Source: Glandiceps talaboti (taxonomy: Eukaryota; Hemichordata; Enteropneusta; Spengelidae). Taken from it: a stretch of 64,000 nucleotides of DNA. The stretch covers positions 9,962,960 to 10,026,959 of the forward strand of contig NC_135557.1 of the NCBI RefSeq assembly GCF_964340395.1, read 5' to 3'. Under the pieces are notes generated by a model that was not told the DNA's origin, searched no databases, and worked only from the letters and a program-made list of their open reading frames with translations. A program made the translations under genes and the position numbers. Positions 15,693 through 51,774 of this stretch are shown here, one piece after another; the first letter of the stretch is position 1; each line of letters begins with the position of its first letter.

Positions 15693-16237
15693 CTGGAGAA
15701 ACATTAAAAAAATAAATATTATAACTTAGTCACATAAGAAAACAAAGTTGAAGAGGTATTCTTAGGGGCGAGATCAATAGTTCAATGTAGGATAAAAAAA
15801 TCATTACACTTAGGCCTCAGACCCACCCCTACCCAACTCCACCCCACCCAAACCCCCACCCCTTTTAACTAAATGTGCCAAACTTGAAAATTGCTTTAAA
15901 CCGCAAAATCGATTTCAAATCAGTATATGTAGTAGTATATAGTGTTATGAATATGAAGCCAGTATGTAGCGAGTAAAGAATAGATTTTTGGTTGACCCTT
16001 TATTGTTTATTGACACACATTTACTATGGCAAAAAATCTTCCTTTTTTCATTTTGACATTGTTAAAGAAATATTTATATTTAGGGGTACAAAACACACCC
16101 ATTAAAAGTAAAATCGATTTTGTGGAATGAGAAATATAATACTGCATATGTTTGTGAAGATAACCTAACACGGTGGAAATCAAAGCATTGTCTTTTTCCT
16201 ATAGCTAGGAAAGATTTTTTTTTTCGTTTTTACTTAC

Positions 16238-19928: not shown

Positions 19929-20187
19929 CACTAGTAGAAAAAATAGTACAGTTTACGACATTTTCCGTACTATAGTTCAGATTGAGTTCAATTCTGTACT
20001 TTTATGCTGATGAGGTGGACGTTTCTGTACTTTCCCATTAGCGCCTGTCTAATCGGATTATACTCGATCTGAAAAATAGTTCAGATTGCGAGTCGGAAGT
20101 GATTTGAATACATTTGCATTTAGTTCAGAATATATTCATGAGTTCACCCCCATAACTGGGCAGTAAACAAATGAATATTCAAATCTA
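19929..20187 (+). repeat. Left terminal inverted repeat of the CACTA element
   Basis: 259 bp, identical to the reverse complement of 40710-40968. Internal repeats include tagttcagatt (twice, plus a tagttcagaa variant) and tctgtacttt (twice), candidate transposase-binding motifs. Confidence 0.93.
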
Positions 20188-23100
20188 TCTCGCCTGCATG
20201 TGATTCAAGGCGTGTACACTAATTGTTTGACCCACAGAAAACTAACAGTAACACTATTTAGTTAGTTAGTTGTCTGTGTTTGACCCCATGAAGGCGGAGG
20301 GGGAGGGTGCAAAAGAAAAGGGTTACACACATGTACAGTGTATGATATGATGAGAGCTACATTTAATGTACATGTACATACGAACTGACATGTATACGTA
20401 CATGTACAACTACGCTAGCATGTAAACGTTAGCAAAAACTCTTACTACTACCTCAGACCACTAAAATACTAGAGTGGTCTGAGCTACTACTACTTGCAAA
20501 AAGTATTTACAAGCATTTCCATGTAGGTCAATGAAATATCACCTATGTGGTTTATACTTCAATAGTCGGTCAAACAGCGTAAAGGTCTACATTCTACAAT
20601 GACAGACATGATTGTTCAACTCGGTGCGATCTAAGATGAATTCACGGTGTATATTTGGTTACGTCGCCTTTGAATTGATGATGACGACTCGTCCGACCTA
20701 GACTGTTCTGGTCCAGTTTCAAGTGAAAGTCAGAATTATCACGGTGCCATTGATTATACTAACTGTGATGAAACTCGCCCACTCTAGTCTCTATGACTTC
20801 ATTAGCCCCAAAATGCAAGAACTTAATAATGGTATTGTAAATCGAAGTTCATGCATGCTCTGACTGTCGCCTGTTTTTTGTTTTCTTACATTTTATACAA
20901 TTTTGAATTGTTAGCTTTGTATTTCCTGCATTAATGTTGAAAACTGGTCTTTTTACTGTGCGTCTTCAATGCGCAGGTAAAATAGTGTGTTAATCTAGCA
21001 TCGTGAGTACGCGCTCGCTTATGGTTTCGCATACCTTGGACTGCCTGTCATTCAGTATTGTTTTAGCCTATTTATTTCTAAAGAAAAATGGTCTGTAAAG
21101 GGACTGCTTTAGTTGTCACAGTGCCTTTGTGGATTTATAAATCGATTTATGACAAGTGAGTCTACCTATTTTTTTTCCGACCCACTCAGTCAAGGAGTGC
21201 GATACACCAATCACCGTGTATTTAGCTTTGTATACAGTGTATGGATAATAGCAAGTTTCGGGACTGAAAAATCATAAATTGTTTGTTAGACTTATTTTTT
21301 ATTCAATGTAATCTGGGTTGATTGGGAATTTTCAGATATCAGGATTTAAACCTCGGATTTCAACTCAGAAAGGCTATATTTTTTGCCTCAGTCTGAATTA
21401 TATTAGTAGAACTCTCACCAATGTTCCCAATGTGAAGTGATCTGAAAGTTGGTGAGAGGTCCTCACGTTGGATTGCAGCACTGCATGTTCTTGCCGAGAA
21501 GATAAAGAGGTGTAGTAATTATGGTTTAAAACTGACTTTTACAAACGCCAGTCGTGTAGGGTCTATGATGTTTTATGTTGTGGATGAATGCGGCACTTTG
21601 ATCTGAACCTCAGACCACTATAATAGGAACAGACTAGAATCGCTTTTTGTTTTAGGTGTGAATGGGGCTCTAAACCCATCTTCTCTGTCGTGCATGGTTA
21701 CCCTTCAAACCTGCTTCAAGCCGAACGTTGTGCAAAACGATACTTCGTGTCTTTACGGTTTTTTTTTGCAATTGTGTTTTAGTGGCCTGAGTCTGAACAA
21801 GTGTTCATACAGTACAGCAAAGTCCCACCAACAAAATCCATAGCAATAGATGCAGGAAAACCTCAGTATGGGCGACGGTGAAATCATGGTGTTAATTCTA
21901 AAACTTTTGAAAGCAAGAACATATGTTTGTGCAACTTTTGTATTAAAAGCATACCATTCCAATTCAAGGACAACGATTTTGTTCAGAAATGGTGGTAGGA
22001 CTATAATCCTTCCTACCTCCTTCCTTCCTACCTCCATAGTTCAAAACCGCTGATCGTAACTGCATGGTACAGCGCATCTACATTTATTTCTGAGTTCCGG
22101 AGGGCATTATTTGATAAGTACCCCATTCGTCCCTGTATTACTATTAGATCTTGTATAGTCATAACATTACAAAGATATGTGATTGTTGTGATCATTTCAT
22201 TTGCTCATTATGTATTCAAGTGTAGTCAAATTTTCTTAGGTGTATGAGCAACTTTACTTCACCAATAAATTCTACTTTCTCACGAGTATTGTAAAATAAC
22301 ATGGCTATAATATGATACTACACAGCACGTTTTAGACGTATTTGCATATCAATGTCATCTTCAAATTTTCTTGAAGAATTCTTCATCTAGATACTCTAAC
22401 ATACCTGCACACCAAATGTCAGCCCATTCAATCGATTAGTTTTGCGGCTGTCATTCATTTTTACTTTGAATTCTTTTATTTACAAAACAAATGACAGTTT
22501 TTGACCCCAAAAATGACCAAAAACAGAAAATTGAAAATATCTTGCTGTCATAAACAAATATGAATAGACTTCTCGATAAAATTCCATTTACTCATTGGGA
22601 ACATCGAACGTACAATGTCAAAAAGTCGCACTGGCGCAAAGTATCATGGGAAAACTTTCTTTGGCACACCTCACTTAGGAAATATAGCCGCAACAAAAAG
22701 TTAATACTGGGATCATGTCTTTTTAAATTTAGCCTTTACCTTATAGAATAGAAGTATCAAAAGTGTATGCACTAACAAGTTTCTGTGGTTTGTGCAAACA
22801 TGCCAAATCGCTGATGATTGTTAAACAACAAAACTTTGCATACCATTGTCATTAATAATTCTACGTTTTACTTCTGAATCAGTTCTAAACACTTACGATT
22901 GAAATGATCGTCAACGATACGCTGATTTGTAGTTGAGGGTAATTAAAAATATTTTACAATGACGATTTCGACCATTAGCCGATGGAGGTGACCCCAACCA
23001 AACCTGTCACAAGATGTAAACTTGCACACTTTTTTTGTGTCAATATGTCTGTTCTGGTCAGTCTGTTTTGGGAATTTATGGTACACTCACTGTCGCAGTT

Positions 23101-24510
23101 TTCAGCCAGGGTCACGTTATTCGACGATTACTATTTGGATAAACACTGCAAAAAAGTAACACCCGTCATTGTTGCTTAGACATTTTCCTAGGGTCTTTTT
23201 CAACATGATTTATAGTAAGAAGTAACTTTGTTGATGGTGTAGTCACTGAATTTATAACCCTACATCGATGACTTAGTAATTGAACACGCAAATGAATTAT
23301 CATGAACACTGATCTACAACCGATCCGACCCTGGGATTCGATCACAATTCATGGCGTCGCTTGCCAGTCTATGTCTATGTCTTGGTCACGCAAACGTGAA
23401 CACTCTGATATCTGAAACACTTCTTTGCTCCAGATACGCACCTTTTTTTCATGGAAAATGTCATATAGTTTGAAGTAAGCTGGGAGAAAATATTAATGAG
23501 ATATTTGTAGATTTAAATAAGAGTGAAATGATAGTCAAGTGATTTTGAACCATCTCCGTGTATTTTGCTTTAGCGAAAACACTGACAACTACTAGTATGT
23601 GATCGCCCGGTCGTCAAATTGCAAAGAACAATGAAGAACAGCTGAACACCTTCCTGTGGTCATCTGTTCCTTTCCGTACCGACTCTCAATTGTTTTGCTG
23701 CGTTTACTTGTATATCTTTAATAACAATAGTTTTTTAACTAACACCAATGTTCTTCCACTTTCTTTGCTTTCAAAATCAGTCACTTACTGTTGTAGCCAG
23801 TCAAAGACAGCCATCCTCAACTGGAAACACACCATGACAACAAAGATATACCAGAAAGTCATGACGTTTTGAATCATATCATTCGGCCCCCAACCCTGTT
23901 TTTGACAATTAAAAAATGCTCTACTACCCATCACAGCCAGTATCAATCAGACTTTTTCCATATATTATATTCCACCCTAACTTAACCCATATGACCGCCC
24001 CATTTATAACTCGTATGTCCGGACATGAACATGATTGGCTTTTCGCTGACCAAGGGGTATGAGACCATATGTGGAAGTGGGGGATAAGCTTATCAAATAT
24101 GACCGTAGTTCCATGTAAATTAAAACTTATAGTTATGCTTATAGTCGTTACGTTTTCAGTTTATTGTGGTACCCGCTTGATGCTTTCTCTGAAGATGCCG
24201 ACGGGATCAGTCTAAAATTCAGTTCTGGTGTATAAACTACAATGTATCACACATATCATGACTCTCACTATCCAATCCATCGGCTATACACTGGAGAACA
24301 CAAGGACTATACTGACTGTTTTCTATCCAGCACGAAATAAATTGAGAATACGTGGAACTTATATGTACATGAACAGTAGCTCCGACAACTCTGACAAGTC
24401 TCTTTGCTGGAGTTCGCGGAGCGTGTGTTGTCAGTGCTAATCTCGTCTAGTTCCTATCACCGTGTTCCTAAACAGTATCGTTACCATTTACACCTCCACT
24501 CACTAAACTT
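20188..24510. other. CACTA interior, left: no gene recognised
   Basis: Apart from the palindromic insertion at 20452 this stretch has only short ORFs (up to about 95 codons) with no recognisable domains. Codon use and frame breaks do not suggest a conserved gene, but small exons of a transposase cannot be excluded. Confidence 0.5.
20452..20483. mobile_element. Ultrashort palindromic insertion, family 2 (copy 1)
   Basis: 32 bp with arms CTCAGACCACT and AGTGGTCTGAG around an AT-rich loop. Flanked by a 7-bp direct repeat CTACTAC (20445-20451 and 20484-20490); the flank is itself a simple CTA repeat, so the duplication is less certain here than at 36130. Confidence 0.6.
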
Positions 24511-24518
24511 GGTTTAGT

Positions 24519-24555
24519 CATAGAAAATAGAGAGGACCCTCTCTATTGTCTATGG
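24519..24555. mobile_element. Ultrashort palindromic insertion, family 1 copy A
   Basis: 37 bp: catagaaaatagagagg, then ccctctctattgtctatg and one extra G. Flanked by a direct repeat TTTAGT (24513-24518, 24556-24561; GGTTTAGT if the terminal GG is shared). A related sequence at about 35351-35390 has a single ggtttagttaga and no palindrome, giving an apparent empty site. Confidence 0.78.
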
Positions 24556-25612
24556 TTTAGTTAGATACCAATTGGCATCTGGACTAGAGCTAATCACGAG
24601 TCCATCACAACGTGCATGCATCATTTTCTGATGTCCGCATTTTGGACATTGAAGTAAATGATTTTACATTTCTGAGTCTCATTCTGTATTTTTCCACTGT
24701 TCTATATGTGGTAGCTACTACTTTTGGCACAATTAAAAAAAAAGATGTTACGAAGACGAAAAAAAATATAATCGAGATGCACGATAAACATTTTTGGAAA
24801 AAAAGTCACATAAATGACTGCAGTATCCATATTTTTAATTGGCATGATTGAAGACTTTAAAAAATGAATGATGATAAAAGTGAGATTTTGCCTCAGTGAT
24901 GGTTTTTCTATACAAGCGATAACATCACGATACCGGGTACTTCACAAACATTATCTCACTGACTTCAAAACCATAGTGACTAAATCGTTTCGTACAATTA
25001 GACGGCATGATGTTTTTTACGTCTCGCACAAGCATATACAATGGTACACTTTACCAAATTGTAATAGACCATGTAAATATTACATTGACCGATGCAGATC
25101 TTGCTCGCGCAGGTTGGGTAGATTTATATGCTACGTTATGCCTTAGGCCTAAAAAATAACTGTTTGGTTTCTGTTACCCGACCCACCTAGTTTTTCACTG
25201 CCGACCCTTAACTTTTTTTACGTGTTCTTGAAAAACTAACAAAATCGCAACAATTGTGAAGTCTCACGAGACATAGTGGATGCAGAAACTGACATCAACT
25301 TAAAAAGACAATATAAAACTGTTCCTCCAATCTGTAATGGTTGTACATCTAATAGAAAGAAGCCAATAACACAGAGATCATTTGGAAAAAATGGAAAACC
25401 AGAATTAGACACTCGCACATTAATAAAAATAAATCTACCTACCCCACCTATTTATTTATTTTGCCTAATCGGAACAACACAATTTTTTTAATAGGCCTAT
25501 TTCCTAACTCAAGCTTAAATTATTGGACCCTTGTGAACCAAAAATGTGCGAAAATACAACGCCAAAATAGTAACGCTTTGCACGGTTTTCACACTGAGCA
25601 ATACGATTAGAT

Positions 25613-25643
25613 CATAGACAGTGAAGTTCTCCAGTGTCTCTGG
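25613..25643. mobile_element. Ultrashort palindromic insertion, family 1 copy E (decayed)
   Basis: 31 bp starting catagacagtg and ending agtgtctctgg, an imperfect palindrome. Flanks TTAGAT (25607-25612) and TTAGAC (25644-25649) match at five of six bases. Confidence 0.55.
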
Positions 25644-25835
25644 TTAGACCGACAACAATGAAACCGTTAGCGGGATCTCAGAGTCATACTCATTCACATA
25701 CAATTTTTTATGGCTGTTCACGTTGGTTAGCAACATCTCTGTCTTTGAGTTTGAATGAAATCGCTGCCATTCCCTACAGGAAACTGTTCTATGGAATTAC
25801 ATGCCAGGAGCGCTTTCAATATCATAGATTGTTTT

Positions 25836-25898
25836 GTTGATCTTTTTTTTTCTTTTTTTCTTTTCTTTTTTTTTTTTTTTTTTTTTTGGGGGGGGGGG
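25836..25898 (+). repeat. Poly-T followed by poly-G
   Basis: Long T tract with C interruptions, then a run of about ten G. On the minus strand it reads C-run then A-run and could be a retroposon tail, but no retroposon body was recognised. Confidence 0.8.
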
Positions 25899-26538
25899 TC
25901 GACAACTTTTACCAAGACAACCATTATATTAATCATTATAGTAATTACCTAGCATGGCTAATAGCCATACTGAGGTAGAACTGTAGATTGCTAAAATGTT
26001 ATGGGTTGCTGGTTGTACACAACCTCAGCATATGCCACTTGACTTTCAGGCATTAATAGGTGGCAGAAATAGTCCGCACCAGGGCCGCTCTGTAGTCCGC
26101 ATAAAAGGGTGACTAAGCCCAGACAATATTGTCCAGACCAGATTTGGAGGTGTGAACGCATTTAAAGCTGACTCGGTTCTAAATCTTGGTGCATATTCAT
26201 GAGGTCGACACCTAGAAAATGAACCATGTGTACATTTCTTTTGTCTTTTGTTAGTTAATTTATGCGGGTAAACTGTGTCTTCACTAACATTTTCCACTAA
26301 AAGTTTCAAAATTGTCTTGTTTTTTGAAGGACTACTATAATAATATTTCACCGCCCTTGCTTTATTGTCATATCAGGAAAGTCAAGAACTTGACAAAAGC
26401 TATTCAAAACAAAGTAATCAAAGTTGCAAAACCAAAATGGTGCCGTGGAGAGTTGTGTCTGGTCATGTTCTGATCATGGAAGTATAACCCACGGTCTGAT
26501 CTAGTAGCAGTATATCAACGACGAATCTACATTACAAA

Positions 26539-26580
26539 CAAACAAACAAACAAACAACACACACACACACACACACACGG
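26539..26580 (+). repeat. (AAAC)n then (CA)n microsatellite
   Basis: Five AAAC units followed by about twelve CA units. Confidence 0.9.
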
Positions 26581-27856
26581 TGATATTAAAAAGCACGCAA
26601 CACAAAGGTTGGTTCACATCCCTCGCATCAGTACCGGTACCCATTCTACTGAGTTATAAATATAAATCACATTCTCAGCTACAACATTGAACTTGTATGA
26701 TACAAAAATCTTCAGAATGTGCGGGCCATATTTTCACTACCGGCATTGGCAGTAACCATCACTGCCTTTAAAAAAATTAATACAGATAAATGGAAGCAAA
26801 AACAATCCTCTTGACGGTAGTTTAGTAGTCAGTTATGAATTATGTAACGTTAAATAACGCTATTCAAATATTTCCCTCTATGCCTCCCATATACCGATAG
26901 TAAATCTTCAAACATCCATACAGACATGCGGACTTTGCTCCCTACTAGATACATCCATGTTTTACGTTACTTTCGTATTGCAAATTTAGCTGATGATGTC
27001 ATGTCAAAGCCACGTGGTCTAAAAACCTGAATCTCCGTACATACATTTCGATATGAAATTATTTATCCGTGATGTTTAGAATTTTGGTCGGTCAATATAG
27101 TTTCAATGACCAAGTGTGACCCCCACTGATGTCTAAAGTACTAATATCAGTACCTGACCGGCCATGGCCATGGCCTTGTTTTTGTTTTTGATTTTCTTCA
27201 ATATTCAAATCTACGTAATGTCTGGTTTGTTAGGCCATAAATTCCAAGCATATTTACCATGATATCACAAATATAGACCAGTTACAGAAAGTAATAAGTG
27301 TCAGCAAAATACTGTAATATCGACACTGTTTCACGGATTTTAGGGACGCTGGTGCTTGGATTATTTTACGGTTGACATTACCTAGCCAGTAATATAAGGA
27401 GTAGTACATGGGTATTTTATCCCTGGACTCTGTTTATATCGAAATGGAATAAGCTGAAACAGTACTTCTTTGAGCAGGAAATATGTTGTGATTATGGATA
27501 TTATATATATACATGTATATAATTGCCAACACATCGGCAACGAGAGTAATGACATTGACTATACGTAATATGTAAAGATGTAGTGTAAAATTGGAATACG
27601 GTCGTCAGGAACTAGATTAGGGTAGGGGGAGGCTCAGGAGAAAAATTGTTGTCACGGGAAGAAAACGAATTGGGACGTGCGTGAAAATTCGGATTGTCTG
27701 AAAGGGGCCCGGAGTCACGTACAAATATTTTGCTCATGAGTTGAACCAAATTTAACTCCAGGAGCAGACGTTTAACAAGCGTATTTTTAAAAGGGTGACT
27801 GGCAGAGAATGTGTGTCTCTTGAAGGGTAGACAATATACTCGCGATAGACTATGGG

Positions 27857-27936
27857 TTTCAGGCCACTGTGTCAGACGTGGTCTTGGAGGAGTCAGTACA
27901 ATTCCTCCAAGAGTGGTAAGAGGCCAAGCCTGAAAT
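27857..27936. repeat. Imperfect hairpin of about 80 bp
   Basis: Outer arms tttcaggc / gcctgaaa and inner arms cttggagga / tcctccaag pair; the middle of the arms has diverged. Flanked by similar segments (atagactatgggttt and atagacgggttt). Possibly an old MITE. Confidence 0.45.
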
Positions 27937-28330
27937 AGACGGGTTTACAAGTAGAAGTTTACATGCCTTGTCTGTGGTTTACATTGTGCACGCAAAACAT
28001 CTCACAAAACCGGCCATAACTAAAGCGGCATATCAGTAAATATGAAAAACGTGATCTTGGTAATTTGGATACCAGTTCTGAAAATATTCTCTGGGAAAAT
28101 AGGTTAAAATGAACATCGAGATAGCTGCCTATTTCCCATTGTTTATAAATCGTCAAGAGGTTAAGCTATCCACTCAGATGAACCACTCTTTGTCACTTTA
28201 TAATCTGGCATTATACATGGGATAATTTCCAAAATGTACATGTTTTATCGTTTCATTTTGGACTTTATAGAAGTTGATGACTAAAATTACCTTACCCTCG
28301 ATGAAAGTTATGAATGCGACTAGGTTTTAC

Positions 28331-28355
28331 CATAGACAGGGTGGAGGGTCTATGG
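28331..28355. mobile_element. Ultrashort palindromic insertion, family 1 copy B
   Basis: 25 bp: catagacagg, gtgga, gggtctatgg. Flanked by perfect TTTTAC (28325-28330 and 28356-28361; GTTTTAC if one terminal G is counted). The shortest member: the inner arms are lost. Confidence 0.7.
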
Positions 28356-29233
28356 TTTTACCTACTAGAATTAGTTGCGACAAGATTGTAAATGCACATG
28401 GGCGAGTTTTGCCAGATTGCTTTATTTCAAGTGATTTGAAAATTGTGAATGGCGGACTTGGCCGTGGTCCATCGAATTGTCGAGTACTACCGTGGTGGCA
28501 CTAGTCGTTCCTCACTGAAACGGCAAGTGCCACCTTCCGGCGATATTTATTGTCTTTGAACCTTTCTCAACAAATAAATCACACATAACTCCCCAAACGC
28601 TTCCATTCTAGAAATCCGGTGCCGACCCTAAACCTTTTTAATAAAGAAGAAAAATCAGTAAAATCGAAAAAATTGTGAGTGAAGTCTTGCCAGAAATGGT
28701 CATCAACTTAAAAAAGACAATAAAAAAAACGCGGTTCTTCCAATCTGGAATGCAGAGCAGATGTCTTTGAAATAGAATTATTTAGTTTGGTTTAAAATTT
28801 AGTTGAAGTGGGCACAAAACTTGATTTGGTTCTGACTGTTCTGAATTTAGGGACACGAAATCGTCTCCCTGATGGCAGGAGTTCAAAGTGTTGGGACATA
28901 ATGTGGCCTTTGTCATTTACCATTTTCCCAGCTTTGTTTTGTACACGAGATGTAAACATTTCATTCAAATTAGTCTACTTTTCACTCAATACTTTACTAA
29001 ACACATTTACAATTTTGTTCAAGACACTCTTGTAGCTAGTCCCTAGACTACCAAACCAGCACAAAAAAGAAAATGTTAAACCGACTCAAAACTCCGATAG
29101 AATGTCTGTAATACCTTGGCATTTACAAAATTTTAGGCCCCTCAATTGTTGTAGACAGTAAACTCTAGATTGACATTTCTTGTTAATGAAATCTGTGATG
29201 GCCTTAACATTTGATTTATTATCCAAGACTGTT

Positions 29234-29237
<4 letters not shown>

Positions 29238-29328
<91 letters not shown>
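29238..29328 (+). repeat. (AT)n microsatellite
   Basis: About 90 bp of pure AT. Confidence 0.97.
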
Positions 29329-29331
<3 letters not shown>

Positions 29332-29339
29332 TCACCTGT

Positions 29340-30235
29340 TCAACTTTAACATTGTCAATAAAAAGGTCGGGCACTACTTTAGGGTTCTTCCTAAAGTCGA
29401 CCTTTCGTCCAAGTAGTTTTCTTTACACCAAGTAACAAACCTATCAACTTCATCGAAATAAGTACGGTCAGAATTTGACAGGTCAACTAATGCAGAGTTA
29501 TCAGAATATTTGATAAGTGGATTTGTATCGGTACCTGATGAGCAGTCATTTGTGTAAAGTGTAAATAGTTTGTGTGAGAGTATCGTGCTCTGTGAGGCAC
29601 CCCTAAATGTTGAATGGAAGGCTGAACTTAATTTTTGGTAGCGAACAAACTGGGAAAGGTTGACAAGAAAATCCATTATCCAGAGGATGAGTTTGGGGTT
29701 AACGTTTAAATAACTAAGTTTATGAGCCATCATGTTTGGTTGACTTCTGTTAACGACTGATGAAAAATCAATAACCAATAGTCTTACAAATGAACTTGGT
29801 TTTTCAAGATGTGTATACGCATCGTGAAGTAATGTGAGAGTTGCATTATCAGTACCTCTATTACTTTAATATGTAAATTGGTATGGGTCAAGGTGTGAAT
29901 GTTTGTGTGGGTTTTGACAAAGTAAAATACGCTCGAAGCATTTCATCACAATGGAAGTCAGTGCTACAGGACGATGCCTTGGAATTTTTTAGGGACCGGA
30001 CAGATGGTAGATGTTTTCCAAATGGTTGATATCGTATGATCATTGTACGACCAATTGAACAATCTACTGGAAACACTAGCTAACTGCGATGCATAGACAT
30101 TCAGTAACCTACCACATATGTTATCAGGACCCATAGCTTTCCTTATATTTAGTTTCTTAAAAATAGACAACTCGTTTATCACTGATTTCAAATTAACTCT
30201 TCTTTTCTTCTTATTTACTCTCAAGATCTAACCCG
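29340..30235 (-). mobile_element. Decayed LINE reverse transcriptase (CR1/Rex1-like)
   Basis: Minus-strand translations in shifting frames give the RT fingers (NIRKAMGPDNICGRLL), PVPKK, a PYQFTY-like segment, VIDFSS and a ruined catalytic box (KYSDNSAL where the family has KYADDTAL). Several frameshifts and stops. An old, dead copy inside the CACTA element. Confidence 0.8.
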
Positions 30236-30355
30236 ATGTTATCTATTTCCTTTCCAAAATCGTGAATATCAAAGCGACAGTACATTACAACTTCGCCTCG
30301 CCACCACCCTGTGTTGCTTGGCAAGGTGGTAAATAAAACAAGTTTGCCTTTGGGA

Positions 30356-30741
30356 TTATATTAACTGGGATTGTCGACACTGAATAATCCGGTCAATCAT
30401 TGCATTGCGCTCATTGTATGTCACGGCGTACAAGTATAAACGACGTTCATACTTCCATGACCATAGTTTCTGCGACCTGTCATTTGTTTGACCATAGACA
30501 CTCCACCTTTGTGGAGGGTCCATGGTTTGATGGGATGCGTTAATTCTGGCAAACTTGTTTGGCAAATCGATCTGACGCAATATAGCTTGTGACCGTGGCA
30601 TGCATAGCTTGGGTCAAAATCTATAACACCATTAAAGTATAAATAATGTTTAAACTTCCACGATAACACATACCTTTGAGAAATTATACTGACAGTATAA
30701 TTACTCCAAGCACAGACTATTCTCGTGTCAAACCCCGACAC
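30356..30741 (-). other. Two overlapping minus-strand ORFs of unknown origin
   Basis: One frame ends ...NERNAMIDRIIQCRQSQLI, and another covers CHGHKLYCVRSICQT. I do not recognise either. Palindrome copy C adds 39 bp (13 codons) without breaking the first frame. They may be TE-derived remnants or chance ORFs. Confidence 0.3.
30492..30524. mobile_element. Ultrashort palindromic insertion, family 1 copy C
   Basis: 33 bp with arms ccatagacactccac and gtggagggtccatg around cttt. Flanked by perfect GTTTGA (30486-30491 and 30525-30530). Confidence 0.75.
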
Positions 30742-30923
30742 GAACTTGTTTTTCCTTGAAGAGTATATCTCGTGAGACCTATGGAAATTATCAAAATCTA
30801 TATTTTAGTTGAAAAGAGCAAGAATGAAAAGAGGGGAAATTTAAGGGACATCATTTCTATATACACGTGTATTGTGCAAAGAACCCGATATCTTTGACCG
30901 CGTTGCCGTCAACCGAGCAATGG

Positions 30924-30924
<1 letters not shown>

Positions 30925-30965
<41 letters not shown>

Positions 30966-30973
30966 TATATATA
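30925..30973 (+). repeat. (AT)n flanking the Penelope-like element, left
   Basis: AT dinucleotide run immediately outside the left Penelope terminus. An AT run also borders the right end, consistent with insertion into AT repeats. Confidence 0.93.
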
Positions 30974-31061
30974 ACTCAGTGAGTATCAATCTGCTAAGAC
31001 AGTGCTCTATACCGCAGTGGCAGAGCGTAATAGTTTTGGTAGTACTGGAACTCTTTCTTGG

Positions 31062-31102
31062 GTGTAACTCGGAGTTTCACGCATATTGCGATCATCAGAC
31101 AC
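31062..31102 (-). ncRNA. Hammerhead ribozyme, inverted Penelope copy
   Basis: Exact mirror of 34433-34473, on the minus strand: CTGATGA and GAAA cores, stem I GTGT/ACAC, stem III ACT-CCG-AGT. Confidence 0.75.
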
Positions 31103-31303
31103 TCTGAGGCCTACTCTCTGGGTGTGCTGTATATATAGAGTGTAGACAATAGAAATACCATCACTATTGTCTGTGTCGGTGGGTAAGTGTTGTATGTGTG
31201 GAGGTGTTGGTTGTTATTGTGTGGGTTATTGGGTGCGGACAAGTAAGTGTTGGCGGGTTGTTACATGTAGGGCTTTGATGTTCCGTTAGTTAACGGGTTT
31301 AGT

Positions 31304-32412
31304 TTAGGTGATGGATGCTCTATTGGAGTTGGACAAATAAAACTTATTCTCGTGTCGGCATTTGGATATCAACTCAGTTCTTTTGTTTAGTGTGGAGCTT
31401 TTGTCTGCTTTAATAATAGTTAGTTTTTCGGTTAAACACAGGTTGCATCGTTTTGTTTTATTGGTGTATGCTTGGGCTTTCTTGCTGATGGACCAGGATA
31501 CGGAAAAAGGCTCATTGTTTCTTTTCAGTTTCCAAATGTGTTTTGATAGTTCTGTGCTGTTTTCGTGTTTTTCATGTTTGAATGACTGTTTGTGGTTGGC
31601 GTATCTCTGCTTGAAGTTGTTCTCTGTTAGACCGATATATACTTTTGTTTGTTTTCCGTGGACGGTGGCTTGGTATACGATGTTTTCCGTTTGGCATTCG
31701 CCGTTCAGAGGGCAGGTGTCTTTCTGTCTGCAATTACAGGGTTTTTGAGTGGGTTTAGTTTCGCTGTTGGATATGGTGGCGTTATGCGCTTTGATTATGG
31801 TAGCCATGTTTGGCATGCAGCTATAACTGACTTTGACATTGTTTCTGTTGAATATTTTGTGTAACTTAGAGTCTGCTGGGAAGTGTTTTGTGATTAGGTT
31901 GAGGAATCGTTTGCCTACATTGGTGGCTACGTTTTTGCTGTATGGTGGGTTAAACCAGATGGTGTTTCTATTTCTGTTTTTCTTGTTTTTCTGCGTCGGG
32001 GTGCTGGTGTACGTGATGTTCTCTTTGTGGCCGCTGGTTTTTAGTGCATTTTGGTACAGTGGGGCTGCCTGGTTGAAGATGTGTTCGTCGGATGATAAGT
32101 CGGAAATTCTACGGCCGATGGCTGACGATATGTTCTTGATGATGCTGGGTGGGTGGTTAGACTGCGTGTGTATGTACATGGGGTTGTCGTTGGGTTTCCT
32201 GTAAGGGTAATATTTACCGTTGTTGAGGTTGAGCGTTATGTCTAGAAAGTTGACGGTTTTCAGATTGGTGAGTATGGTTATTTTTAACCCCATGGCTTTG
32301 AAGGTTTTAGTTATGTCTTTTCTGACACTTTCTGATTTACTTCCGGTGATGTTCTTGAAGGCGGCGAGTCCGTCGTCCCTATATAGACCTATGTTTTCTT
32401 TACCGTATTTTT
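31304..32412 (-). CDS. Penelope-like RT C-terminal half plus GIY-YIG endonuclease, inverted partial copy
   Basis: Open from the junction at 32412 to the stop at 31304. It begins just upstream of the RT catalytic YRDD and includes NFLDITLNL, the Cys-rich linker (CNCRQKDTCPLNGEC) and the GIY-YIG domain (VYIGLTENNFKQR). Lacking the RT N-terminus it cannot encode a full enzyme. All ORFs on the opposite strand here are shadows. Confidence 0.88.
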
Positions 32413-32413
32413 A

Positions 32414-34231
32414 ATACTTAGAAAAATCAAAAACTCCCGCGAAATGATCATCCCAGCCGATAAAACCAGAAACCTGTACCTCCTTCAAAAAGATCAATAC
32501 AACAAACTCCTTAGAGATAATATAACCAAACACTACAAACCCGCCAGCGATAGAGCCTACAACAGCATTAACGCAGAAGCAAAAAGTATAGCACAAAAAC
32601 TCGATTTAGACGATAGGACTGAAATACTCGCCAAGAAAGAAGCTTTTATAACGTTAAAAGACCATAAAGACAATTTCGAACACAGTTTACCTTGCAGACT
32701 AATCAACCCCGCAAAAAGCGAGATAGGCATTATTAGCAAAAAAATACTTGACACCATCCTCCAAAACATAAGACCCATAGTCGCCGTCAACCAATGGAAA
32801 AATTCTATGTCAGTCATCGAATGGTTCAAGAACTTAGAGGACAAAAACAAACACACTTTCGCCTGCTTCGACATATGCGACTTTTACCCATCCATAACCG
32901 AAAAATTGTTATTAGAATCCCTCAAATTTGCCGGCCAATACACCACCATATCAGATGAAGACAAACAAATTATCATGCACGCGCGGAAATCTCTCCTCTT
33001 TGATAAAACCAAACCATGGGTAAAAAAGAATAGCAATGGATCATTTGACGTCACAATGGGAAGCAACGACGGGGCCGAAATATGCGAACTGGTCGGAATA
33101 TTCATACTACACAAATTAGCCAAAAAATACGGTAAAGAAAACATAGGTCTATATAGGGACGACGGACTCGCCGCCTTCAAGAACATCACCGGAAGTAAAT
33201 CAGAAAGTGTCAGAAAAGACATAACTAAAACCTTCAAAGCCATGGGGTTAAAAATAACCATACTCACCAATCTGAAAACCGTCAACTTTCTAGACATAAC
33301 GCTCAACCTCAACAACGGTAAATATTACCCTTACAGGAAACCCAACGACAACCCCATGTACATACACACGCAGTCTAACCACCCACCCAGCATCATCAAG
33401 AACATATCGTCAGCCATCGGCCGTAGAATTTCCGACTTATCATCCGACGAACACATCTTCAACCAGGCAGCCCCACTGTACCAAAATGCACTAAAAACCA
33501 GCGGCCACAAAGAGAACATCACGTACACCAGCACCCCGACGCAGAAAAACAAGAAAAACAGAAATAGAAACACCATCTGGTTTAACCCACCATACAGCAA
33601 AAACGTAGCCACCAATGTAGGCAAACGATTCCTCAACCTAATCACAAAACACTTCCCAGCAGACTCTAAGTTACACAAAATATTCAACAGAAACAATGTC
33701 AAAGTCAGTTATAGCTGCATGCCAAACATGGCTACCATAATCAAAGCGCATAACGCCACCATATCCAACAGCGAAACTAAACCCACTCAAAAACCCTGTA
33801 ATTGCAGACAGAAAGACACCTGCCCTCTGAACGGCGAATGCCAAACGGAAAACATCGTATACCAAGCCACCGTCCACGGAAAACAAACAAAAGTATATAT
33901 CGGTCTAACAGAGAACAACTTCAAGCAGAGATACGCCAACCACAAACAGTCATTCAAACATGAAAAACACGAAAACAGCACAGAACTATCAAAACACATT
34001 TGGAAACTGAAAAGAAACAATGAGCCTTTTTCCGTATCCTGGTCCATCAGCAAGAAAGCCCAAGCATACACCAATAAAACAAAACGATGCAACCTGTGTT
34101 TAACCGAAAAACTAACTATTATTAAAGCAGACAAAAGCTCCACACTAAACAAAAGAACTGAGTTGATATCCAAATGCCGACACGAGAATAAGTTTTATTT
34201 GTCCAACTCCAATAGAGCATCCATCACCTAA
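32414..34231 (+). CDS. Penelope-like reverse transcriptase and GIY-YIG endonuclease, N-terminally truncated
   Basis: First ATG is at 32444 (595 aa), but the frame is open back to the junction at 32413, so the true start is lost. Domains in order: RT fingers and palm (IPADKTRNLY; FACFDICDFYPSI as motif A; GLYRDDGLAAF as the catalytic box; NFLDITLNL), a thumb-like region, a Cys-rich linker, then GIY-YIG endonuclease (VYQATV, YIGLTENNFKQRYANHKQSF) and a closing KRCNLCLTEKL/CRHENKF Cys-His pair. Such proteins drive target-primed reverse transcription of Penelope-like elements. No stop or frameshift breaks the 1.8 kb, so this is a young copy. Confidence 0.92.
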   Translation: MLRKIKNSREMIIPADKTRNLYLLQKDQYNKLLRDNITKHYKPASDRAYNSINAEAKSIAQKLDLDDRTEILAKKEAFITLKDHKDNFEHSLPCRLINPAKSEIGIISKKILDTILQNIRPIVAVNQWKNSMSVIEWFKNLEDKNKHTFACFDICDFYPSITEKLLLESLKFAGQYTTISDEDKQIIMHARKSLLFDKTKPWVKKNSNGSFDVTMGSNDGAEICELVGIFILHKLAKKYGKENIGLYRDDGLAAFKNITGSKSESVRKDITKTFKAMGLKITILTNLKTVNFLDITLNLNNGKYYPYRKPNDNPMYIHTQSNHPPSIIKNISSAIGRRISDLSSDEHIFNQAAPLYQNALKTSGHKENITYTSTPTQKNKKNRNRNTIWFNPPYSKNVATNVGKRFLNLITKHFPADSKLHKIFNRNNVKVSYSCMPNMATIIKAHNATISNSETKPTQKPCNCRQKDTCPLNGECQTENIVYQATVHGKQTKVYIGLTENNFKQRYANHKQSFKHEKHENSTELSKHIWKLKRNNEPFSVSWSISKKAQAYTNKTKRCNLCLTEKLTIIKADKSSTLNKRTELISKCRHENKFYLSNSNRASIT

Positions 34232-34432
34232 ACTAAACCCGTTAACTAACGGAACATCAAAGCCCTACATGTAACAACCCGCCAACACTTACTTGTCCGC
34301 ACCCAATAACCCACACAATAACAACCAACACCTCCACACATACAACACTTACCCACCGACACAGACAATAGTGATGGTATTTCTATTGTCTACACTCTAT
34401 ATATACAGCACACCCAGAGAGTAGGCCTCAGA

Positions 34433-34473
34433 GTGTCTGATGATCGCAATATGCGTGAAACTCCGAGTTACAC
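34433..34473 (+). ncRNA. Type I hammerhead ribozyme in Penelope terminus
   Basis: Stem I GTGT (34433-34436), CTGATGA (34437-34443), stem II CGCA-ATA-TGCG flanked by a T-T pair, GAAA (34457-34460), stem III ACT-CCG-AGT, cleavage triplet GUU ending at 34469, then stem I strand ACAC (34470-34473). All conserved core bases are present; the usual G-C closing pair of stem II is replaced by U-U. Confidence 0.78.
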
Positions 34474-34499
34474 CCAAGAAAGAGTTCCAGTACTACCAA

Positions 34500-34502
<3 letters not shown>

Positions 34503-34576
<74 letters not shown>
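34503..34576 (+). repeat. (TA)n flanking the Penelope-like element, right
   Basis: Pure TA run starting where the right Penelope arm stops. Confidence 0.95.
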
Positions 34577-34579
34577 AGG

Positions 34580-35560
34580 TAAGTCATAAACTGAAGGAAA
34601 AGTGCTCAATACTGAGAAGTAGAGCTGTATTTACACAAAGTACACAAGTTATGGTACGGAGGCCGTTACGATCTTCAGACGACTAAATAACGGAAATTCA
34701 AGTGATAGAATTCGAACTCACAGAAGAACTGGTACCCGGATGTGATGCGCGTTGTTGAGTGACATGGTGGAATGATAGAATGTATTTGTTTTCGTGGACG
34801 ATTTAGTGGACGATCTAGTGGAATTAGTCTCTAAAAAAAAACATGAATCATGGTCTGAGTACTTCACAAATGTATTCAATGCTCAAGTCCAAAGTGATGA
34901 AAGTTTCTCGATTTCCATGATCTTATCAGATCCACCTTGATAGACATAAATTCAGGCATTAATGGTGAGATTAATATCCGACTGTAGTCTTTTGGACAAG
35001 GTAATTACTTTGATAGTCTAGTTCCTATACTGTATCATTACCATTTATACCTCCACTCACAGTATAGTCAGAGTCGTTACTCTAGAAGTCTTGAAATGCA
35101 TGAGATGCAATTTAAAATTCATTTAAAGCCACCCACACAGTCATTAACATCATGTCTTTGTTAATAAATCACAAAACTCTAACCAATAACACAGTCCCTC
35201 ATAAAGTTAGTGTTTATTGGGACAGTAATGTTCAAATGTGGTATATTTGTCAGCTCATGATGCTACTTATATACTGTTTACATCACCAAAACATTTAGGT
35301 TTCACTGATTGGGTGAACAACTTTTTGTGCTATTTGAGGGGCTTTTGGCTAGACGTGGTTTAGTTAGAAACCATATTGGCATCCAGACTATTACTTTGAA
35401 GGAGATCATTGAAGAACAATAAAAATAAAACTCAAGGTGTGGATATGGGATCAGTGTGGCATTCTACATAGACATTCTCCAACAATTCTTGTAGACATGT
35501 TATGTAACCATTTTTTCTTCACGAAAGGCATGTTCTCACAGGAATCAATGGGATAGGGGT
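34580..35560. other. CACTA interior with traces of LINE-like sequence, no gene
   Basis: Near 34855-34990 the plus strand reads like a ruined LINE segment (YFTNVFNAQV). At about 35019-35065 and 35345-35395 it matches 24441-24600. No intact ORF. Confidence 0.45.
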
Positions 35561-35589
35561 TTCTAACATTGTCTTTTGAAAGTAAATTA

Positions 35590-36060
35590 CATGTATGTCA
35601 AAACTAAAATTATTGTATTTACTAAGAGATGAAATTCTTAAGAAAATTGAAAAGTGGTTATTGGTGGTCATAAACTCGACGTTGTTCGCTTTTTATGAAT
35701 ATCTAGGCGTGATTATGTCAAGCAGTGGTCTATGGTATTTAGCGCTTACAGCTCAAGCGAGTAAAGCAATGATTGCGGTCATGAGTCAACTTGCAAAACT
35801 TGGGGACCTCCTAGTCAAAACTAAATTTAAAAGTTTTTGACTGTAAACTATTACCGATATTAAATTATACAGTGGAGATTTTGGGTTTTAATAGGTCTAC
35901 TGAAACTGAACGTGTTCAAAGTAAATTTCAGTGTTATATTTTGAGTCGTATATAAACATATATGTAGTCTTTGAGTATGGGAGCTACACAAATGCTTGAC
36001 AAGTGTTCATTACGGGAAGTAGGCTGAAATGTTTTGGGATTGCTGAACGAGAGCTGCAAA
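35590..36060 (+). mobile_element. Decayed LINE ORF2 C-terminal fragment
   Basis: The plus frame reads EYLGVIMSSSGLW, then KLGDLLVKTKFKSF, a stop, and VEILGFN-RSTETERVQSKF. This is the typical post-RT region of a LINE in which FxYLGxxxSSxG and a C-terminal thumb occur. Broken by stops. Confidence 0.65.
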
Positions 36061-36129
36061 ACTTTAACCTCAGACCACTTCTCCTCAGCCCTGGTTCAAG
36101 TTCTTAGGTCATAGTGGTGTAAACTACAT

Positions 36130-36155
36130 CTCAGACCACAATGTAGTGACCTGAG
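36130..36155. mobile_element. Ultrashort palindromic insertion, family 2 (copy 2)
   Basis: 26 bp: CTCAGACCAC, aatgta, GTGACCTGAG. Flanked by a perfect 7-bp ACTACAT (36123-36129 and 36156-36162). A further CTCAGACCACT half-site lies just upstream at 36069. Confidence 0.65.
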
Positions 36156-36232
36156 ACTACATGTACATGTAGGCCCTACCTACTGGTATATTATGTAACT
36201 GCACTTGACGCCAGTGTGATTTCTAACTAAAC

Positions 36233-37069
36233 TGTGTTATTGAAAGAACCGATGTGACGTCATCTGTTTTCTTTGTACCTGACACAATCCCAGCTGCTGT
36301 ATTTTGGGCATGTTCAAGAGGGACAATGTTTTTAGCTGGCAGCCCATACAGAAGGGCCATTCAGTAGTCAGGTATCGATGATATAAGTGCATGACCAAGG
36401 TTCTGACAAACTCCGTTTGTAAGATACTGGCGTATGCGACCATAGACAGTGGAGGGGCCCCCTCCACTGTCAATGATGCGACCTATTGTTCGGGGGTGAA
36501 AAAGAACTGATCTACATGTCAACGAGATGTGCTTCTTGAGGTTATAACGGTCATCAATTGTTACACAAATGGTACATGCTGAATCCACTAACTGCACAGA
36601 AGACGATCCCATGTTGATGTGGTTCATGAGACGAGGAAGCCTGTTGAACTGAGACGTGATAAGGAGGACCTCGGTTTTGCCATCATTAAACTAGCTTATT
36701 TTGGGTCGTTTAATATCATGTGCAACAGTTTCCATCTTAGTTACTGTAGTTGACGTATGTGATTGGGGAAATATATTGGTAAATCTGGTTGTCGTCTGCA
36801 TGTTGTTGCATATTGAGATTTTGATGTCGGATTAGCTTTCCAAGTGGTGATGTGTATAGACAGCATACGCGTGTAAGAGTGGACCAAGCACAGGGTTTTG
36901 TGACACTCCACACTGCAAATGTTTGGTTTCTGATATGCCTTGTACAGAAATGGACTGTTGTATATCTTTGAGGTATAAAGACTCTAGTCGAATGCCTGTA
37001 ATACCGAGCTCGGAATAAACTTGAAATTATGCTGGAGTCAGAATTTACGGGGGGGGGGGGCATGAACAA
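36233..37069 (-). mobile_element. Decayed LINE RT (L2/CR1-like) fragment
   Basis: The minus strand reads LYTSPLGKLIRH, QHADDNQIY (family pattern YADDTQLY), then NLKKHISLTCRSVLFH, RQYLTNG and ALISSIPDY in shifting frames. Palindrome copy D interrupts it between GRI and RQYLT. Confidence 0.75.
36440..36475. mobile_element. Ultrashort palindromic insertion, family 1 copy D
   Basis: 36 bp: ccatagacagtggagggg and ccccctccactgtcaatg, a palindrome with one mismatch. Flanked by ATGCGA (36434-36439 and 36476-36481; ATGCGAC counting one more base). It adds 14 codons in frame within the decayed LINE, where the family sequence runs straight from GRI to RQYLT. Confidence 0.8.
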
Positions 37070-37209
37070 AATTGAGGTTCAAAGGGAGGGGGGCATGACA
37101 ATTGTGAGGGTCTGAAAGGGCCCCCGAATATTCTGCTCATGATTTGAACCAAAATTAAACCTCAGGAGCAGTTGTTTACCAAGTAAATTTACATTTGTAT
37201 AAGTGTATG

Positions 37210-37318
<109 letters not shown>

Positions 37319-37439
37319 GCCGTATGTCTCCTTCTCTCTTGCTCTATCTCTCTGTGTGGAGACTTTGTTGAACATTCAAACCACAGGAGCAATCGTTTAC
37401 CTTGTACTTTGCAAAATTGTTCACTTCATTTACCTACCA

Positions 37440-38255
37440 CACATTTAATTATTAGGCAGCCAATGGCCAAACGAATGTGTGTGTCTGCCAAAATATCTAT
37501 GTATTAGTTAAAGCGTAGGTAATACAGTTGTAAAATAATTTAATGAGAGTACAATTTGGGTATTGAAGACAATTTTCAAGTACTTTATGGCTTCCAATAA
37601 TGTGTATGGTTTGAAATATTATGCCGCTAAATGGCCTCCTACATGTCCTTATTTTTCAAACAATTGCCTACTGTGGGAGGGGGACACACCCTCCCCACTA
37701 GTTATCGAAGGGGGATGCCGTTTCTGTCAAGACATAGGATTCAAAAAGAAAACTCTGCTGGTTAAGTTTTTCCAAGTACAGGTTACAGCCCAATGAGCCC
37801 ACATCCATTTGTAAAGAAATCTCTATGTCTGATATGTATGGACACTGAAGTTGATTTCCACTGTTAGCTTACAGTGTGTCATATAGTGTACCATACTGTA
37901 TTTCTCTGACGTGTATGGGGAGGGGGTAATGTATAATTGCATATTGAAATATGTGCAGCCGGGGGGGGGGGTATGGACGTCGCCATCTTTCAAGCGCTAA
38001 ATTACCTGTTAATCGAGATTTGTTTCAAAACATTAGCATGGTTGATAATATATGTGAAAGGGGTAAACTAAGAATGGTTTCTGGGATCGCCTAAGTCAAC
38101 ACGACATATATTGTGGATGGTCTGAGATATTCGATTACGATTCACATCGTCCGATTTCCAATCGTCACAATATCCATATTAACATTCTTTTATCGTTTCA
38201 AAATCACAAAAATGCATATGTCGTGGTGGGGTGAGTACCGACTCTAGTTTGGTCT
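37440..38255. other. CACTA interior, no gene recognised
   Basis: One 77-codon ORF (37563-37796, plus) lacks any known motif. A G-rich/C-rich inverted pair at about 37671-37699 lacks flanking duplications. Confidence 0.45.
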
Positions 38256-38256
38256 C

Positions 38257-38370
<114 letters not shown>

Positions 38371-38399
38371 CTCCCCCTCTCTCTCGTCTCCGTATCGAA

Positions 38400-39510
38400 A
38401 CTTATTCAGTCATAAAATCATCAGGTTTCTGACAATTTCCAATACCTGTTACAAGAAAGACTGCAGTACAAGAATATTTGGTTAGCTACATGTATTACAT
38501 CTGATGCCTTATACGTGACACGCACGATAATTGTCCAGTTTGCATCAGAGGGTGTGCCTCGCCTTCTGTACATGTGCCGTACGTCTGGCTTGTCTGTCAG
38601 TGTCACATTTTGCTTCCCCTCTTCAGTTTTCTCAGATGTTTTAAGAATTTAAACATAGTCAGTGTCTGATCGACAAAAATTCTTTCCACTGAAGTTTAGA
38701 AAACATTTAGTGCAACTTTACGTAAACGTCATGTTGATGCATCATACATCATCATGAGACGTCACATTGACCTCACACTTCGCTTCGCGCTTCCTTCAAC
38801 GTCCGGTCGTTATGAAACTAGTTCGAAGGCTTTCGCTAGCGATAGCGTGGCCAGTCTTGTTTTACTGCGTAATCGTCTAATGTTTTCCAAATAATTATGA
38901 ATTAATTTATCTTTTTGTTTACACTTTGGGTATTTTACTTGCTATTAGAACTCCCGGGCAACTCATATTTAATTTTCCAACCTTAGAATTTGTTCAATGA
39001 TCGTCAGGTTTGAGTACTTTCCTAAGCCGGTCCCACAACTGTTATACTTATACGTTATAGCTGGGCGTTGTGACCGGTAACCGGCTATTATCTACATCAC
39101 TGCCTACTAGGTACGTCAAAAACACACCGTTCGCACATGTGAGCCTGATTTTAGGCAAAATATCGGGCTATTAGAGTGCATACAGGCCCTTTTGTTCGCT
39201 TGTATTGTTTGCATTTGGTATTTGGCATTTCGCACGTTGTTTATTTGCACCATTCACAGTGTCTTATCATGCTTTGTGTAACTTGTAAGCCTAATCGACA
39301 ACTGGGCCAACGGTTTTTACTAGACAAATTTGAAACAAATTTTGCGTCAGTTTGATGGTAAACCTGCGATATTGACTACCAAACTTAGTTAACCCCAGTT
39401 ATTTTTACTCATGTTGCATCACCATATATTTAGAAAGAGTATATATGAAATATGAGAGCCATGTGAAACTTCTTCAGTGCAAAATGGGATGAAGATATGA
39501 GGGCAAAGTC
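38400..39510. other. CACTA interior, no gene recognised
   Basis: No ORF above about 61 codons. A less AT-rich block with CGCTTCGCG-like sequence lies near 38760-38840; its role is unknown. Confidence 0.45.
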
Positions 39511-39522
39511 AGTGCTCCTTAT

Positions 39523-39674
39523 AGTCTCGCTGCCAGACTCGAGACTATCGTCCCTAATCTGTTTACCGAGCGGCGCAGCCGCGAGAAGATCGGGACCAGT
39601 CCCCCTCTATTCTCGCGGCTGCGCCGCTCGGTAAACAGATTAGGGACGATAGTCTCGAGTCTGGCAGCGAGACT
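39523..39674. mobile_element. Hairpin MITE with 65-bp TIRs (MULE-like)
   Basis: Arms begin agtctcgctgccagactcga and end at the mirror tcgagtctggcagcgagact, with about 65 bp per arm and a 22-bp centre. Arm identity looks perfect. Flanked by a 9-bp direct repeat TGCTCCTTA (39513-39521 and 39674-39682, overlapping the tip by one base). Long TIRs with 9-bp duplications suggest a Mutator-like origin. Half-length relatives occur in the TRIM unit spacers at about 5733 and 12548. Confidence 0.82.
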
Positions 39675-39689
39675 GCTCCTTACAGCAGT

Positions 39690-40705
39690 TTGTTTTTCCC
39701 GCATATGCATACATTACCCATAATCCTTTTAAGTATTCTGCAGATATCTGGATATCTGTGCAATGTGCACTCATGACTCATGAAAATCTGGAATGCACTG
39801 ATCGAAGCCAATTGTACAGTTATACTATAAAAACAGGAGTTATGAGTATACCACATTGAAATAAAACAAGAGAATAAGAGATGAGGGCCCTCAGAATCGT
39901 CACGTAGAGTGATATAACAGTTACATGGATGCCGGGCATGTACCCATAGGTACGGGCCCGGGGGGGGGGGGGGTTCTGCATGCCGAACGTCATTAAGTAC
40001 ATTGTATTTCCTTTACTTTGGTGCTCATGATCGTAATTTGGATGATGCCCAAGATATTTGAGGCGTGAATACCTGTTGTTCTTCTAAAGGCTTGTTTATT
40101 ACTGTGAAGATCACACCCTAACACTTAATTGTTCTATAAACGACACATGGACAAGAATACTATTCCCATAGAGGTTAGTCTAGTTAATTCCTGATGGACC
40201 GTATTTCGTTCAGCGTTACGTTGTACATAACACGGTCAGTCAGAAACTATAGACGACATGGACGACATGGATGCCATATAATATTCCCAATAGTCACTCA
40301 ATTTTACTTAGCTAGAAATAATGTCCACAGACTCAAATCTGTCAGCACGTCTCTACTGTGAGTTTGTTGACGCTATTGGCCGGTCAGGTTTGTTAAGGAG
40401 CTCCATACACTAGCAATATTTGTGGCCCAATTTTAAACTATTATTGGAAACGATTGTCATGTCATCTAAATCTGTATTACTATGCATCAAACGCGTAGAA
40501 ATGTGAAACACGTTTAGTGGTGGCGGTATGTAGTGCATAATGAAAAGGCGTACTACGAACATTTATTTCAAAATGAGCCCTGTGATATTACAATCTACGT
40601 ACGTCCTAACCATGTAGTTCATATCATAAGCCTGCTTATATACATACATATGTATCGAATACACTAGCTACACGTATAGCGTTTATGTACGTATTGATTG
40701 CAAGC
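39690..40705. other. CACTA interior, right end, no gene recognised
   Basis: Unique AT-rich DNA with a G-run at about 39960-39973. No ORF above 60 codons. Confidence 0.5.
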
Positions 40706-40709
40706 ACGG

Positions 40710-40968
40710 TAGATTTGAATATTCATTTGTTTACTGCCCAGTTATGGGGGTGAACTCATGAATATATTCTGAACTAAATGCAAATGTATTCAAATCACTT
40801 CCGACTCGCAATCTGAACTATTTTTCAGATCGAGTATAATCCGATTAGACAGGCGCTAATGGGAAAGTACAGAAACGTCCACCTCATCAGCATAAAAGTA
40901 CAGAATTGAACTCAATCTGAACTATAGTACGGAAAATGTCGTAAACTGTACTATTTTTTCTACTAGTG
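40710..40968 (-). repeat. Right terminal inverted repeat of the CACTA element
   Basis: Reverse complement of 19929-20187, ending in TAGTG. Homology stops sharply at 40710. Confidence 0.93.
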
Positions 40969-51769: not shown

Positions 51770-51774
51770 CCTCA

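Follow-up and report, generated by a model that had tools for sequence, protein, structure and literature searches.

Five small palindromes of 24-36 bp (E1 to E5), found in a 64,000-nucleotide stretch of the genome of the hemichordate Glandiceps talaboti (contig NC_135557.1, positions 9,962,960 to 10,026,959; this whole stretch is called the window below), are most probably excision scars (footprints) of P-superfamily transposons and not ultrashort mobile elements, a reading to which we assign a probability of about 0.88. An earlier note, made from the letters of the window, had described the same five insertions as mobile palindromes with 6-bp target duplications. Each of the five was confirmed, with ends of the CATAGAC...GTCTATG type, but their flanking repeats are 7 bp long (three exact, one with one mismatch and one with two). 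Their mobility is called into question by the short copies themselves, which consist mostly of the outer 16-20 bp of a longer terminal inverted repeat (TIR), are often one-armed and contain filler.

A longer element sharing these ends and coding for a transposase, as the earlier note had proposed to look for, was found by searching for the transposase domain PF21787 (13 matches). Two of the matching loci, on C14 and C19, hold a common element (97-99.5% identity) in different flanks. The C14 copy (C14:24543531-24552984; 9,454 bp) has GTATAAT at both sides and a perfect 36-bp TIR, CATAGACAGTGGAGGGGAGAAGGACAGGAAAGCCGG, which starts with the scar arm; the C19 copy has GTTACTC at both sides, and the left end of the element is CATAGACAGTGGAGGGGAGAAGGACAGG. 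The outer 17 nucleotides (nt) of this TIR are identical to the left arm of E5 and differ from its right arm by one mismatch. The 751-amino-acid open frame of the parent matches PF21787 (TNP-like_RNaseH_N) at 2e-23, the sole Pfam match of the frame, and a PDB sequence search to E 1 returned only the Drosophila P transposase (6p5a), as a weak match (E 0.045). On the opposite strand a 123-amino-acid frame gave a weak C2H2 match (0.0008, below the family cut-off), the Pfam scan of a 344-amino-acid frame gave no match, and no THAP or GTP-binding-domain model matched any of these three frames at E ≤0.001. Judged by its sequence, the parent belongs to the P superfamily, a group marked by duplications of 7 or 8 bp; it has a predicted P-type transposase carrying an RNase H-like domain, 36-bp TIRs and a 7-bp target duplication (GTATAAT and GTTACTC, each present twice).

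Other searches for parents were confined to defined regions. No full-length parent, with such TIR ends no more than 9 kb apart, was present in the window or in twenty 10-kb loci, and no such ends were detected in the thirteen PF21787 loci (∼3 kb each). Ends of the CTCAGACCACT type gave a single match among loci L049-L066 (in L049), facing away from the transposase, while parents ending in CACAGAC or CTTTGAG were not searched for. A 36-bp scar-like palindrome with a related arm type was observed inside an intact P element (L062:7819-7854), with flanks TACTAGC and TTCTAAC.

The further copies expected in the earlier note proved numerous. In the 590,416,875 bases searched, the 16-base arm (≤1 mismatch) had 957 + 857 matches, against 3 + 3 for a reversed control, and an exact 20-mer of the TIR occurred 87 + 107 times, against 0 for its control. 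Among the 100 arm places listed, 21 were in two tandem arrays and 16 were copies of E5, and some palindromes were counted twice; the number of independent scars is therefore smaller than the raw arm count. We estimate it, from the listed matches and the fetched loci, at some hundreds to about a thousand for the 16-base arm. Copies were studied in 8 loci from the search and 40 stretches chosen from the listed matches. In five of the loci (L009-L013) E5 is present twice, 292 bp apart.

The extent of the TIR retained by the short copies was determined on 51 distinct ends, with nine loci containing arrays or repeated E5 fragments excluded, identical contexts counted once and both ends of a palindrome counted. 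The match to the parent TIR was 12-15 nt in six ends, 16 in eight, 17 in ten, 18 in nine, 19 in one, 20 in eleven, 21 in two and 23 in one; no end fell at 24-35, and the three that matched all 36 nt belong to intact elements. Thus, of the 42 ends that match ≥16 nt and do not belong to intact elements, 39 stop within 16-20 nt, three at 21-23 and none at 24-35, such that a ceiling near 20 nt is evident in this sample. The 16-base seed truncates the lower side of the distribution by selection and leaves the upper side unaffected. If breakage were even between 16 and 35, the chance that all 42 ends would stop by 23 is ∼2e-17; this figure is optimistic, as a palindrome's two ends do not count as independent. 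The ends matching 21-23 nt may be chance matches beyond position 20. The tips are no longer than the overhang, as in a P-element footprint, the overhang length being drawn from these same data.

The form of the copies was analyzed in 33 places, after arrays and CACTA-borne E5 copies (15 of the initial 48 loci) had been set aside. A 7-bp repeat within 60 bases was exact in nine places and present at ≤1 mismatch in 17, compared with 0 of 33 and 5 of 33, respectively, for a shifted control (the preceding seven bases); without five places picked as palindromes, the counts were 6 of 28 and 12 of 28. Perfect palindromes of 20 + 20 nt occurred in at least five loci among the matches listed, with five different 7-bp repeats (ATCAAAC/ATTAAAC, GTTTAAG, CTGCAAC, CTCTAAC and TTATAAC; four of them exact). 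The remaining forms were ragged. Right arms measured 0-20 nt over the 17 repeat-bearing places, and 0-13 nt in the 12 of these not picked as palindromes, where the right arm was not selected for. The arms were separated by 0-16 nt, and by 31 nt in L034, a doubtful locus. For example, the one-armed L004 has 18 nt between two copies of ATTGAAC, L041 has arms of 18 + 5 nt, and L005 contains 16 nt of apparently templated filler. Such ragged joins and filler are typical of P-element footprints. Among the places lacking the repeat, a right arm can be seen in some (L002, L029, L035 and L047) but not in others (L006, L026, L039, L040 and L046), as would be expected if the join had removed flanking DNA or the duplication had decayed. 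The targets favor a GTTNAAC-like palindrome: position 6 is A in 31 of the 33 places, position 2 is T in 23 and position 7 is a pyrimidine (C or T) in 28.

Within the window, two scans were compared with dinucleotide shuffles. A motif-free scan (arms of 8 with ≤1 mismatch, exact 7-bp repeat, 20-60 bp; 20 shuffles) found seven places against a shuffle mean of 0.05; two of the seven (AT-rich, 59-61 kb) were taken for repeat noise. When the repeat length was varied (arms of 9; 40 shuffles), the observed counts and shuffled means were 12 and 3.60 at 4 bp, 4 and 0.88 at 5 bp, 2 and 0.33 at 6 bp, 5 and 0.07 at 7 bp, 2 and 0.03 at 8 bp, 1 and 0.00 at 9 bp, and 0 and 0.00 at 10 bp. The clearest excess is at 7 bp. 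These are true insertions with target duplications, as the earlier note had held. One of the five 7-bp places (44512; AT-rich) was taken for repeat noise, and two of the three places at 8-9 bp duplicate, in a shifted register, places already counted at 7 bp. Small insertions with other arms also emerged from the scans (20233-20278, 20452-20483 and 36130-36155), as did a candidate with one repeat mismatch (30674-30710).

The scars could arise as follows. A P-type element would insert at a GTTNAAC-like target, duplicating 7 bp; at excision the transposase would cut one strand at the end of the element and the other some 20 nt further in, within the TIR, so that the donor chromosome would retain up to 20 nt of TIR at each side. 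End joining, the probable repair route, would then fill and join the single-stranded tips, giving the order duplication, tip, optional filler, inverted tip, duplication. Unprocessed tips would yield the perfect 20 + 20 palindrome, whereas trimming, microhomology, filler or deletion of flanks would produce the shorter, lopsided and one-armed forms. The ceiling suggests the position of the cut, and the structural features of the scars follow if the stagger of the parent is ∼20 nt. The variant arms (those of E1, E2 and E4, and the CTCAGACC, CACAGAC and CTTTGAG types) presumably derive from sister P families; in particular, the arm type of E1 is unlike that of the parent found.

Comparison with known systems is based on excerpts of the cited papers. 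There, the P transposase is described as making its second-strand cut 17 nt into a 31-bp TIR (PMC7776569), and end joining as leaving a footprint of the overhang sequence between the target duplications (PMC3878927). Drosophila P-element footprints (PMC7776569, PMC3878927) are accordingly built like the present scars, with a TIR tip as long as the overhang, followed by its inverted counterpart, between two target duplications. The scars described here differ in their 7-bp duplication, in a ceiling of ∼20 nt where Drosophila has 17, and in their abundance as fossil remains in the genome of a wild animal. Galileo, a Drosophila member of the P superfamily reported to make 7-bp duplications at palindromic GTANTAC-type targets (PMC4168063), resembles our case in the duplication length and the palindromic GT...AC target, but its TIRs are long and foldback-like, compared with 36 bp here. 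The P-MITEs (miniature inverted-repeat transposable elements) of Anopheles gambiae are likewise non-autonomous P relatives with TIRs in common with their masters; the families named in the excerpt range from 205 to 2,450 bp and have 8-bp duplications (PMC1562414), whereas the copies described here measure 18-46 bp (one doubtful case at 51) and have no common interior outside the 20 + 20 class. In rice, filler and deletions at sites vacated by DNA transposons were recognized by genome comparison (PMC4423477); these footprints belong, according to the excerpt, to other superfamilies and were obtained by comparing two species, whereas ours were recognized by a structural signature. No fossil P-element scars of this kind were found among the papers listed from the open-access literature, judged by title and the start of the abstract, and no paper in that literature was found to combine Glandiceps talaboti with transposable elements.

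The view that the palindromes are TIR-only MITEs of 24-46 bp, made of two TIR tips and mobilized in trans by a P-type transposase, takes up the mobile palindromes of the earlier note; it would account for the 7-bp duplications at different targets, the common ends, the high copy number and the five identical 40-bp palindromes at different sites. A MITE family would be expected to have two intact TIRs and a common interior. The copies, however, vary in interior and length (the 20 + 20 palindromes excepted), many are one-armed, either between both duplications (L004) or without a right side, and their arms end near position 20 of the 36 TIR bases. Moreover, the Drosophila P transposase requires internal binding sites, which these copies lack. 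We consider this view unlikely. A related and improbable variant is that the perfect 20 + 20 palindrome, although born as a scar, is recognized by the P-type transposase and moves as an interior-less 40-bp element; if so, a scar would have become the smallest known eukaryotic transposon. P elements are also known to form internal deletions by interrupted gap repair, and copying from a sister copy that aborted very early after excision would likewise leave a tip and an inverted tip between duplications. Aborted copying should end at many positions and not at a ceiling near 20 nt, and the empty interval from 24 to 35 nt makes this origin very improbable. Chance palindromes or local slippage, with no transposon involved, might be suspected for the small insertion at 20452-20483, which lies in repeat-like sequence, and for the arm copies in the two tandem arrays; this explanation was rejected on the shuffles, with their excess at 7 bp, and on the reversed-pattern control of the arm count, and for the CATAGACAGTGG arm it is refuted by intact parents with the same ends, leaving it a negligible probability. 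As for affiliation, the earlier note had hinted at IS3EU or Dada. IS3EU makes 6-bp and Dada 6-7-bp duplications, each with a transposase of its own; a superfamily with 6-bp duplications was rejected on the 7-bp length, which taken alone would be compatible with Dada, and the parent encodes a putative P-type transposase.

Several observations weigh against the interpretation as excision scars. The 16-nt seed on one arm leaves shorter tips on that side unsampled, the two ends of some palindromes entered the break-point tally separately, and three ends extend to 21 or 23 nt. The five identical 20 + 20 copies at different sites also fit a mobile 40-bp palindrome. The earlier note had regarded copies without flanking duplications as evidence against its insertions: 16 of the 33 places indeed lack a 7-bp repeat even when one mismatch is allowed, and the other 17 have one at that threshold. 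Only the nine exact cases are individually safe, because the shifted control also reaches 5 of 33 at ≤1 mismatch (but 0 of 33 exact), and one of the nine (L034) is doubtful, being in CAAA-rich sequence. Two complete parents were traced, as against hundreds or more of scars; the other 11 of the 13 PF21787 matches are known from ∼3-kb loci only, without ends. Finally, the single assembly used showed no locus in both the occupied and the excised state.

If the palindromes are indeed excision scars, genomes that once held P-type elements would keep a readable record of past excisions. Such a record would suggest the cut position of the transposase (∼20 nt), its target site (GTTNAAC-like) and the range of outcomes of germline end joining, all in an animal poorly suited to bench work. 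It would also warn against listing short palindromes flanked by target duplications as new ultrashort transposons.

Coordinates of the putative scars, other small insertions and their carrier in the window.
Feature	Position	Length and structure	Flanking repeats
CACTA-type carrier	19929..40968	270-bp TIRs starting CACTAGTAG	TAA at both sides
Other-arm small insertion	20233..20278	46 bp; arms CACAGA(A/C)AACTAAC	TTTGACC (exact)
Other-arm small insertion	20452..20483	32 bp; arms CTCAGACCACT; repeat-like context	CTACTAC
E1, probable scar	24519..24554	36 bp; two 17-nt arms (1 mismatch between arms) + 2 nt	GTTTAGT at 24512-24518 and 24555-24561 (exact)
E2, probable scar	25613..25642	30 bp	ATTAGAT (25606-25612) / GTTAGAC (25643-25649), 2 mismatches
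E3, probable scar	28331..28354	24 bp	GTTTTAC at 28324-28330 and 28355-28361 (exact)
E4, probable scar	30493..30524	32 bp	GTTTGAC (30486-30492) / GTTTGAT (30525-30531), 1 mismatch
Candidate small insertion	30674..30710	37 bp; arms of ∼17 nt + 3 nt	CACATAC/CACAGAC, 1 mismatch
Other-arm small insertion	36130..36155	26 bp; arms CTCAGACCAC-like	ACTACAT
E5, probable scar	36441..36475	35 bp; 17 + 1 + 17 nt	ATGCGAC at 36434-36440 and 36476-36482 (exact)

The CACTA element named in the earlier note is real: its terminal inverted repeats pair at 266 of 270 bases (4 mismatches), and other copies with ∼97-99% identity exist in the genome. All nine insertions recognized in the window lie inside it and none was recognized in the other 43 kb. 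As far as the scans show, the arm family is confined to this element within the window, as had been stated before. E5 is present in all five long CACTA copies fetched (L030, L033, L037, L038 and L042), and E3 in all four that reach far enough on that side (L030, L033, L038 and L042). Both scars predate the spread of the CACTA element and were copied along with it; part of the genome-wide arm count therefore represents copies of one scar.

Two empty-site arguments were discarded. For E5, the joined 95-amino-acid reading of an apparent surrounding retroelement matched no Pfam family and had no homologue in the protein database; a PDB match (E 0.83) was put down to chance, the window held no second copy, and the argument was dropped. 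For E1, a partial paralogue (35021-35060 and 35356-35390) resumes at GGTTTAGT, but its left side fails to align, and it was not used.

Two larger structures were also observed in the CACTA element. The region 31041-34500, an insertion, contains a reverse transcriptase-like frame (32387-34231, + strand) and a long inverted partial copy (31304-32410, - strand); it is missing from the five other CACTA copies fetched, and it resembles a Penelope-like element with a GIY-YIG-type tail, a motif for which the Pfam scan gave no match. At 39523-39674 lies a foldback element with 72-nt arms (96% complementary), an 8-nt loop and flanking repeats of ∼8-9 bp (TGCTCCTTA).

Tandem arrays containing the arm were encountered elsewhere in the genome. 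In locus L014 (G000:C1:2409700-2410700), positions 158-803 form an array in which a 38-bp unit is repeated 17 times, every unit consisting of a 31-bp scar-like stretch and 7 bp (GTCTAAC or GTTAGAC); this minisatellite seems to have grown out of a transposon scar by way of the flanking duplications. The second array (L015) has 42-bp units, and a third, with 29-bp spacing, may be present at C10:26300200.

Outside the carrier, the window encodes three very similar TRIM/B-box-like frames, spaced ∼7 kb apart (839-1930, 7783-8901 and 14564-15703, all on the - strand). The Pfam scan covered the third of these only, which is 96% identical to a Glandiceps talaboti protein, the next best match being from Ptychodera flava (50%). 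A rhodopsin-type G protein-coupled receptor of 367 amino acids (PF00001, 3.3e-29) is encoded by a single open frame at 50681-51784 (- strand).

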